Part shown: one piece after another, positions 42,120 to 44,140 of the stretch
Numbering within the stretch: position 1 is the first letter of the stretch
Layout of the letters: each line of letters starts with the position of its first letter
NCBI GenBank assembly: GCA_031177765.1
Contig: JAPSKH010000007.1
Span: 44,557 to 88,696 of the forward strand
Length of the DNA: 44,140 bases
Direction: 5' to 3'
Source: Microbacterium sp.
GTDB lineage: Bacteria; Actinomycetota; Actinomycetes; Actinomycetales; Microbacteriaceae
Made by a program: the position numbers and the translations under genes
The notes under the pieces: model-generated
Database searches by the model: none
Told to the model about the DNA's origin: nothing
What the model saw: only the letters and a program-made list of their open reading frames with translations

Positions 42120-42899
42120 TCAGTTGAGGTTCCGGGTGCTGCCGGGGATCGCGCCGTCGCGATAGAGCTCGGCTGCCACATCCTGCAGCGCGGTGAGCGC
42201 CACCCGCTGCGTGGCCGGTCCATACGAGATGCGGGCGACGCCGAGCGACTCGTACTCGGACGCGGTGAGCGCGCCCGGCAGCCCGATGACGCTGATCCTG
42301 CGCTCGCCGATGCCTTCGACCAGCCGTCGTGTGGTGTCGGCGTCCAGGATGCCGGGAACGAAGACGAGGTCGGCGCCCGCGTCGAGATAGGCGCGACCCC
42401 GCTCGATGGCGTCGGCGACGGATGCCTCGACCGGGCGGTCGCCGGCTCGCAGGAAGGCATCCGTGCGGGCGTTGAGGACGAACGGCACGCCCTCCGCTTC
42501 TCCGGCGGCCACAACGGCCTCGACGACGGCGACCGCTTCATCGAGGGGCCGAAGCCGGTCCTCGATGTTCCCGCCGATCGCGCCCTTCGCGATCGCGCGG
42601 CGGACGGTGTCGCCGGCGTCGCCGAATCCGGCGTCCAGATCCGCCGTGACCGGCAGGTCGCCCACCGCCTCGACGATGCGCCCCACCATGTCGAGCATGA
42701 GATCCCGCGGAATCTTCTCGCCATCGGCGTATCCGAACGTCGCCGCGATCGAATGACCGGCAGTGGCGATGGCGCGGGTTTCGGGCAGCGCAGCCACTGT
42801 CGTCGCCGAGACGACGTCCCACACGTTCACCACCCGCAGGATCTCGGGCGCGGCGTGCAGCTGCGCGAGCGTCTGAGCCTTGGCCACCTGGTTCGTCAT
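42120..42899 (-). CDS. Isocitrate lyase/PEP mutase superfamily protein
   Basis: TIM-barrel C-C bond lyase-like protein of 259 residues. It begins LAQLHAAPEILRVVNVWDVVSA, has the metal-binding VTADLDAGFGD, the loop AIGGNIEDRL (equivalent to GxNLED) and FVLNARTDAFLRAGDR. The KKCGH-type catalytic motif of true isocitrate lyase is absent, so it is one of the many lyases or hydrolases of this superfamily with unknown substrate; oxaloacetate, methylisocitrate or phosphonopyruvate-like compounds are possible. Leaderless: TAGCGT at 42911-42906, 6 nt, ATG 42899. Convergent with the MetPS genes. Confidence 0.9.
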   Translation of the reverse strand: MTNQVAKAQTLAQLHAAPEILRVVNVWDVVSATTVAALPETRAIATAGHSIAATFGYADGEKIPRDLMLDMVGRIVEAVGDLPVTADLDAGFGDAGDTVRRAIAKGAIGGNIEDRLRPLDEAVAVVEAVVAAGEAEGVPFVLNARTDAFLRAGDRPVEASVADAIERGRAYLDAGADLVFVPGILDADTTRRLVEGIGERRISVIGLPGALTASEYESLGVARISYGPATQRVALTALQDVAAELYRDGAIPGSTRNLN

Positions 42900-42944: not shown

Positions 42945-43376
42945 TCAGCCGATGCGGCCGTCGAGATACCACCAGCGCCCGCTCTGGCGGACGAACCGGC
43001 TCCGTTCGTGCAGCACGCCGTCACGCTTGCCCTCGCGCCAATGCGCCTGGAACTCCACGACGCCGCGGGTGTCGTCCTCGCCGCCGGCATCCGTCGCCAC
43101 GATGTGCAGTCCCGTCCACCGCTGCGCGGGGTCGAGCTCGATCGCCGCGGGGCGGGTGCCGGGATGCCACGTCTCGCGCAGATGCCGTTCGTCCCCCACC
43201 ACGAACGCGGTGTAGCGCGACCGCATCAGCCGCTCGGCCGTGGGGGCGCTCGCTCCGCGCAGCAGGGGCTCACAGCAGGCCCCGAAGCGATCGCCGCTGC
43301 CGCAGGCGCAGGGGTCGCCTGCGCGCAGCACAGGGAACCGCCCTCGCGGGCGAGATGCGGCCGCTCCGAAGGACAC
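42945..43376 (-). CDS. SEC-C motif protein, UPF0225/YchJ family
   Basis: A 143-residue protein of the YchJ type. The N-terminal SEC-C zinc motif reads DPCACGSGDRFGACCEPLL; then TAERLMRSRYTAFVVGDERHLRETWHPGTRP, a conserved NTF2-like segment, and HERSRFVRQSGRWWYLDG at the end. Function is unknown in this family; the metal motif resembles that at the end of SecA. GTG 43376 has GGGAGG with a 5-nt spacer and lies one nt after the TraR-like gene stop, so the two form an operon. The frame extending to 43589 is a shadow of that gene. Confidence 0.92.
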   Translation of the reverse strand: MSFGAAASRPRGRFPVLRAGDPCACGSGDRFGACCEPLLRGASAPTAERLMRSRYTAFVVGDERHLRETWHPGTRPAAIELDPAQRWTGLHIVATDAGGEDDTRGVVEFQAHWREGKRDGVLHERSRFVRQSGRWWYLDGRIG

Positions 43377-43377
43377 G

Positions 43378-43743
43378 TCAGCCTCCCGCTCTCTCGGCGC
43401 ATGCGACGCACCTCGTCGCGAACGGCCGGACACGGAGTCGCTCGACGGGGATGCTGCGACCGCAGTCGGCGCAGATCCCGTAGGTTCCGGCCTCCCAACG
43501 GCGCAGCGCGTCGTCGATCTCGCCCAGCTCGCGACGAGCGGCGTCGGCCACACCGGCGGCGTGCGCCCACTCGCCCGAAAGGGTCGCACCCTCGGGATCG
43601 TGCTCGTCGTCGGCGACGTCGACCGCCCGGTCCTGTCGAAGCCGTGCCATGGCCGCGTCGATGCCTTCCAGTCGTGCGCGGGCCGCGTCGGCCAGATCGT
43701 CCAGCAGCGCGCGCAGCTCGGGACGAGGAACGGAGGACGTCAT
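43378..43743 (-). CDS. TraR/DksA-type zinc finger protein
   Basis: A 121-residue protein with an N-terminal helical hairpin (LRALLDDLADAARARLEGIDAAMARL, then DAARRELGEIDDALRRWEAGTYG) and a C4 zinc finger: CADCG and CVAC (IPVERLRVRPFATRC between them), matching the DksA/TraR C-terminal signature. It lacks the DksA DxxDxA acidic tip in recognisable form, so it should not be called DksA. It probably affects transcription or binds RNA polymerase. Leaderless start: TAGCCT, 6 nt, ATG 43743. Followed by the SEC-C gene. Confidence 0.92.
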   Translation of the reverse strand: MTSSVPRPELRALLDDLADAARARLEGIDAAMARLRQDRAVDVADDEHDPEGATLSGEWAHAAGVADAARRELGEIDDALRRWEAGTYGICADCGRSIPVERLRVRPFATRCVACAERAGG

Positions 43744-43749
43744 CCTCCG

Positions 43750-43755
43750 AGGCTA
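43750..43755 (-). promoter_or_regulatory. -10 box for the leaderless TraR/DksA-like gene
   Basis: TAGCCT on the minus strand at 43755-43750, then 6 nt, then the ATG at 43743. Confidence 0.55.
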
Positions 43756-43809: not shown

Positions 43810-44010
43810 GGGCACCGCAATCTCACAGGTGGCGGTGGGATCCTGAAGGCATCGCGGCAAGCGGCCCCCACCGAACCCCGCGATCCCCCCGCCACGGCAT
43901 CGAGTCGGACGGGACTGCTCTCGTGCCGTTTCCCCCGGCGACACGAGGGGCGGTCTCATCGAACCGCCCAGAGCCGGCGATCACGGCCCCCGCGCGATCG
44001 CCGGCTTCTT
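43810..44010 (+). ncRNA. Candidate structured RNA, C-rich loops (unidentified, 6C-like in style)
   Basis: Five successive perfect or near-perfect hairpins read on the plus strand: CACCGC/GCGGTG (43813-43837), ATCGCGG/CCGCGAT with CCCCC in its loop (43851-43884), ACGGCA-CGAG/CTCG-TGCCGT with inner AGTC/GACT (43894-43929), GGGCGGT/ACCGCCC (43948-43969), and a terminator hairpin (43972-44006). A run of six C lies between the second and third hairpin and CCCCC after the third. No ORF explains it. The actinobacterial 6C RNA is defined by hairpins with C-rich loops, so it is one possible identity, but I cannot confirm it from sequence alone. Confidence 0.55.
43972..44006 (+). terminator. Rho-independent terminator of the structured RNA candidate
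   Basis: A perfect 11-bp stem (43972-43982 with 43996-44006) and a 13-nt loop, followed by TCTTCTGTCTC. Only the plus-strand direction has a T-rich tail, and no plus-strand protein gene precedes it, so it must end an RNA transcript. Confidence 0.7.
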
Positions 44011-44060
44011 CTGTCTCATCCGGGTTGTGGATAACTCTCCGCGGTCACCCAGCCCGCCGG

Positions 44061-44066
44061 TAGCGT
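44061..44066 (+). promoter_or_regulatory. -10 box for the right-edge lipoprotein gene
   Basis: TAGCGT, then 6 nt and the GTG at 44073, so the gene is probably leaderless. Confidence 0.55.
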
Positions 44067-44072
44067 GGGGCC

Positions 44073-44140
44073 GTGGGACTGCGGAGGGTGTCGGCGCTCG
44101 TGGCGGCCGGGCTCGTCCTCGGAGCGCTGACCGGATGCAC
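44073..44140 (+). CDS. Lipoprotein gene, N-terminal fragment (cut by window edge)
   Basis: The first 22 codons are visible: MGLRRVSALVAAGLVLGALTGC, a short basic n-region, hydrophobic core and a lipobox LTGC at residues 19-22, typical of a lipoprotein signal peptide. The rest is outside the window, so function is unknown. The GTG start is leaderless with TAGCGT 6 nt upstream. Confidence 0.7.
   Translation, partial: MGLRRVSALVAAGLVLGALTGC

Follow-up and report, generated by a model that had tools for sequence, protein, structure and literature searches.

Does the gap between a dksA/TraR-type gene and a lipoprotein gene at the end of a Microbacterium contig hold a small RNA, and if so, is it the actinobacterial 6C RNA or an undescribed one? 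The window (the whole stretch of 44,140 nucleotides that was analysed) closes contig C14 in draft genome G000, which is 72.6% complete, and the original prediction had left both answers standing for this interval. We found that positions 43823-44012 of the plus strand form a conserved unit in Microbacterium and that its hairpins are real. By analogy, it is best read as a new family of small RNAs whose mode of action is likely that of 6C. The interval lies where it had been placed, with a divergent zinc-finger gene of the dksA/TraR type (43378-43743, minus strand; Pfam zf-dskA_traR) on one side and on the other the start of a plus-strand lipoprotein gene (44073-44140), read by eye from a GTG at 44073 and the lipobox LTGC and truncated by the contig end.

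All parts of the unit are on the plus strand. It opens with a promoter-like block, TCACAG-N10-GATCCT (43823-43844), from whose position transcription would be predicted to start at about 43850. Hairpin P1 follows (43851-43884; 7-bp stem ATCGCGG/CCGCGAT at 43851-43857/43878-43884), then a run of six C on its 3' side (43885-43890; unpaired probability of 0.46 in the window copy) and a small hairpin, P2 (43893-43908). The conserved core (43910-44012) begins with P3 (43911-43957), in which perfect 6-bp arms, CTCGTG/CACGAG (43920-43925/43942-43947), enclose a CCCCC loop (43932-43936) and are prolonged by an outer extension, GGGAC/GTCTC. P4 (43948-43969), a perfect 7-bp pairing of GGGCGGT with ACCGCCC (43948-43954/43963-43969), is the alternative to that outer extension, and the fold of the window copy favours the extension. 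The terminator-like hairpin P5 (43972-44006) has perfect 11-bp arms (43972-43982/43996-44006) and CCCCC in its loop (43987-43991). Sequence and fold together confirmed the three stems with perfect arms of 6-11 bp that had been claimed (6, 7 and 11 bp), as well as the C-rich loops and the six-C run. Five hairpins had been counted; four stems were confirmed, and the fifth, P2, is weak and poor in the window copy while being clear in some relatives. The T-tailed terminator was not borne out, as P5 is followed by TCTTCT, a tail poor in T, and a terminator scan, which admits loops of 3-8 bases where that of P5 has 13, found none.

We then asked how widely the unit occurs. A DNA search in 58 relatives gave matches in seven, the window included; two of these seven genomes (G011 and G036; short matches, E = 3e-4) were left out of the relatives. 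Further relatives were reached through the neighbouring dksA gene, and a covariance model of the core, R1, was built from 17 sequences including that of the window, which it scores at 87.7 bits as one of its own seeds; an eighteenth sequence, from G198, was excluded from the seed and retained in later counts. The R1 searches of the genus and of the order used stricter filters, which lose weak matches. In the genus, R1 matched 34 of 366 genomes at E ≤ 0.01 (the 17 seeds and 17 others). From these we removed the weakest match (43.6 bits; locus L102 of G267), which has no block and no nhmmer match and overlaps a long mechanical ORF, and 33 were kept. The remaining 332 of the 366 genomes gave no R1 match under these stricter filters, indicating that the genus can do without the RNA. 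Of 396 genomes sampled across the order, four had R1 matches, all of them Microbacterium (1 of 109 genera). A search with the core pattern returned 22 named records; R1 scored the 16 from Microbacterium at 82.9-113.7 bits and the six from other genera at no more than 38.6 bits. Among 52 dksA loci from genomes lacking an R1 match, the block was present in one (L066 of G010; reverse strand, 0/52), where a hairpin of 11 bp follows, with CCCCC in its loop and TCTCTCTTT as its tail; this locus is probably a diverged relative that R1 missed. Two more of the dksA loci (L064 and L182) carry C-loop hairpins and no block. A scan of the window against Rfam 15 gave no family match at gathering, and among the matches listed in a search of the open-access literature on Microbacterium small RNAs, none dealt with such an RNA or with this locus.

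A conserved, stable structure is present in this RNA (mean z of -5.33 over 33 relatives; 95.7% of alignment cells paired). The original prediction had put the folding signal far above that of random sequence, which does not hold for the window sequence alone (43810-44016, z = -1.84, matched or bettered by 10 of 200 dinucleotide shuffles; 43850-44012, z = -2.93) and does hold across the relatives. The core has a mean z of -6.03 (n = 33), and the P1-P2 region a mean z of just -1.15 (n = 33). The antisense strand also folds beyond chance, at a mean z of -3.07, and the difference between this value and the sense mean favours transcription of the plus strand. For one relative, L085, in which two TCNCAG motifs overlap, the z values were computed from the second (an RNA seven bases shorter), and the P1 alignment, the C-runs and the block placement from the first.

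For pairing and covariation, identical rows were collapsed, leaving 32 of 33. In the MAFFT alignment of the core, extended P3 and P5 were paired in 95.7% of cells (shuffles, 94.2%; structures slid along the alignment, 41-49%), with a covariation score of 0.116 (shuffles, 0.088; slid, at most 0.072) and two-sided changes in five pairs (1.6 in shuffles, 5 of 500 of which reached this number). Moving the structure by -3 to +3 columns gave 1 to 6 pairs with such changes, so that this count alone is no proof of structure, and the covariation across relatives is modest. The version containing P4, which is mutually exclusive with the P3 extension because both use columns 40-45, was paired in 97.4% of cells and had three two-sided pairs, none within P4 (56 of 500 shuffles as high). 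P1 is variable in sequence among the relatives; a hairpin was predicted in 22 of the 23 P1 regions inspected (of 33), not strongly above shuffles, and RNAalifold found no common structure in a MAFFT alignment of 19 P1 hairpins. The stems of the core were thus conserved in the relatives, and the lack of conservation that would have spoken against an RNA was not what we found. A coding region was also considered and rejected: mechanical ORFs do overlap the interval, which had been described as free of them, and none of the frames stays open throughout the 33 relatives (each is open in 14-22 of them), whose core lengths modulo 3 divide 11/10/12.

We then examined the block, which was first noticed in the relatives. 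In the form TCNCAG-N11-A-N3-T it lies 79-106 bases upstream of the core (33/33 relatives); its TC, CAG and second-box A and T are identical in all 33, and its placement made no use of that A and T. Each of the 33 relatives has a single copy of it in the stretch from -130 to -50 relative to the core, and 11 of 10,200 mononucleotide-shuffled stretches (0.1%) contain it. A strict pattern, TCNCAGGT-N8-GANNNTG, had seven matches in eight genomes, four of which were this RNA, and a control pattern had one. Conservation, the strand asymmetry of folding and this single occurrence of the block all support the undescribed small RNA that the original prediction had named as one of its options. The second box has the form of the actinobacterial -10 element, TANNNT, its first base being more often G than T. 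A -35 box usually stands at a spacing of 16-18, and the distance from TCNCAG to the second box falls short of this. The block is a candidate for the RNA's own promoter.

Its layout (six bases, ten bases, xANNNT) is the same as that of PafBC promoters, which we compared using what we take to be the RecA-NDp consensus. Upstream of Microbacterium recA we found TGTCGG-N10-TAACGT in five of five readable loci, with TAGCGT in one; this count leaves out L116, the recA of G012. The recA box has TG at its first two bases whereas the RNA block has TC in 33/33 relatives, and membership of the PafBC regulon was rejected since the layouts are equal but TCNCAG stands against TGTCGG; PafBC itself is unsupported. 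PafBC is reported to recognise a -26 element, with sigma-A kept off the -35 position (PMC11804915). Our guess would be that an activator related to PafBC reads the block.

What might such an RNA do? The C-runs of its loops are predicted to be unpaired. A run of at least four C is present in the P5 loop in 33/33 relatives (mean predicted unpaired probability, 0.83) and in the P3 loop in 22/33 (0.92), being absent in the other 11; the mean over all C of the RNA is 0.37. The reading that we favour, with reasonable though far from full confidence, is an independent small RNA, about 160 nt long by prediction, that would likely act in trans: its loop C-runs would pair with G-rich ribosome-binding sites and in this way block translation. 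Transcription would begin at the promoter-like block, near 43850, the transcript would end after P5, and the C-loops, by analogy with 6C/B11, would pair with messages and switch their translation off. In mycobacteria, the C-rich loops of 6C/B11 are reported to pair with ribosome-binding sites, and in M. abscessus repression acting through the eccB4 5' UTR, which has six G, persisted after a change in either loop by itself (PMC10470900). Alternatively, the RNA could titrate a protein that binds C-rich RNA or RNA polymerase, leaving mRNAs aside. Several C-loops in one molecule and a high conservation of sequence would suit such a role, but our analysis indicated no protein partner, and the loops of the analogous 6C/B11 are reported to pair with mRNAs (PMC10470900). 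We regard titration as unlikely.

The other option of the original prediction was 6C itself (RF01066), of which the locus would then be a divergent copy. 6C is described as having a pair of stem-loops, each typically containing six C (PMC4046766). The 6C copies that we displayed have two hairpins with C-runs, the present RNA likewise has two hairpins with C-run loops, and its stretch 43947-44009 scores 20 bits with the 6C model. This score compares with a gathering cut-off of 47 (20.0 bits; E = 2.4), but the genus' own 6C candidates also fall below 47 bits, so the shortfall in bit score alone is not decisive. At the loci of six relatives, 6C gave no match at E ≤ 5. Elsewhere in the genomes, a 6C match of some kind was found at E ≤ 1 in 26 of 33 carriers, none above the cut-off and the best at 28-44 bits. 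This search was loose, as a control at the same threshold also matched Caulobacter vibrioides and Corynebacterium glutamicum matched only below the cut-off, and our comparison therefore rests on 21 candidates with shared flanks.

These 21 candidates, each in one of the 33 carriers, occupy one conserved locus separate from that of the present RNA and are all below the cut-off. The window's own genome is among them, with a candidate at G000:C26:4140-4218 (33.2 bits, below the cut-off) whose flanks are as in the relatives. The promoter-like block was absent upstream of 8/8 6C loci, and R1 matched none of the eight at their 6C, giving one weak match elsewhere in L143. The two RNAs are alike in being small actinobacterial RNAs with hairpin loops of C-runs. 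They differ in that the two stem-loops of 6C are adjacent in the Rfam model, whereas here the P4 region separates the two hairpins with C-run loops, P3 and P5, and P1 is additional; this RNA also has a predicted length of about 160 nt, a conserved GGGGCGG middle, the alternative P4, another promoter block and another locus. Given the score of 20 bits against 47, the other layout, promoter and locus and the separate 6C candidate, we rejected 6C as the identity of this RNA, and even a divergent copy is improbable. With a separate 6C locus that has neither the block nor an R1 match at the 6C, it is very likely that two different C-loop RNAs coexist. The 6C model also matched outside the conserved 6C locus, below the cut-off, at L163 (G129:C1:1452266-1452343; 36.4 bits) and L164 (G359:C1:2199944-2200021; 31.7 bits). 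Inspected by eye, L163 resembles one long hairpin whose loop is CCCCC, and it may be a third C-loop RNA.

We then considered whether the hairpins could belong to a neighbouring gene. In 30 of 34 loci the R1-matched stretch has a divergent dksA/TraR gene beside it, at a distance of 34-541 bases. Downstream, a lipoprotein gene is close by in 22 of 33 loci (that of the window read by eye) and lies at 515 and 920 bases in two; a convergent gene takes its place in eight, and neither was found in one. A structured 5' leader or attenuator acting in cis on the lipoprotein gene would agree with the shared strand and short distance in the 22 close loci. In the eight with a convergent next gene, however, no lipoprotein gene was found within 1500 bases downstream and the block and hairpins are kept, and the two distant lipoprotein matches and the locus with neither gene also count against a leader. 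In 11 of the 22 close loci this convergent gene is present as well, on the far side of the lipoprotein gene, which indicates that the lipoprotein gene was gained or lost beside a standing RNA. In addition, the lipoprotein gene has a TANNNT box of its own (44061-44066 in the window), six bases before the GTG as in leaderless mRNAs (window and L004; by eye). A unit kept while its downstream gene changes makes a lipoprotein leader quite unlikely. A mere stack of transcription terminators is less probable still, in spite of the intergenic place, the terminator-like P5 and the convergent next gene in 8/33 loci, since dksA, where found beside the RNA (30/34), is divergent and does not read into the hairpins, and terminators need neither conserved primary sequence and C-loops nor a block 79-106 bases upstream.

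Several further features of the neighbourhood were observed. By eye, TAGCGT stands six bases before the GTG of the lipoprotein gene (44061-44075) and TAGCCT six bases before the ATG of dksA (43741-43755); with boxes at this distance from their start codons, the two mRNAs probably lack leaders. In 21 of the 22 close-lipoprotein loci, the interval separating the RNA from that gene contains TGTGGATAA (44026-44034 in the window), the reverse complement of the DnaA-box TTATCCACA; in the other 11 loci it is absent from the 200 bases downstream. Beyond dksA the window holds a PEP-mutase-family gene and a YchJ-type gene (42120-42899 and 42945-43388), with a SEC-C motif just below its cut-off, and in L094 and L099 similar proteins were noticed by eye close to the RNA.

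To our knowledge, small RNAs of the Microbacteriaceae have hardly been described, and we know of no Hfq in actinobacteria. Ms1/6S RNA, a single long bulged hairpin, resembles the present RNA in being a small structured regulatory RNA of actinobacteria; it differs from this one, which has several C-loop hairpins and no Rfam match at gathering in the window. A term search of the main text of a survey of Ms1 synteny (PMC9130861) returned no Microbacterium. A bolder and distinctly doubtful proposal is that the RNA belongs to a second C-loop system beside 6C, with a -26-type promoter read by a WYL-family activator and a core that switches from extended P3 to P4 and back, presenting the C-loops to messages only in one state. 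The invariant block would offer a handle on the signal. If the reading that we prefer is true, Microbacterium would carry the C-loop device of 6C on a separate scaffold, with 21 of 33 carriers also having a 6C candidate at its conserved locus, and this would suggest that C-loops directed against ribosome-binding sites arose more than once in actinobacteria.
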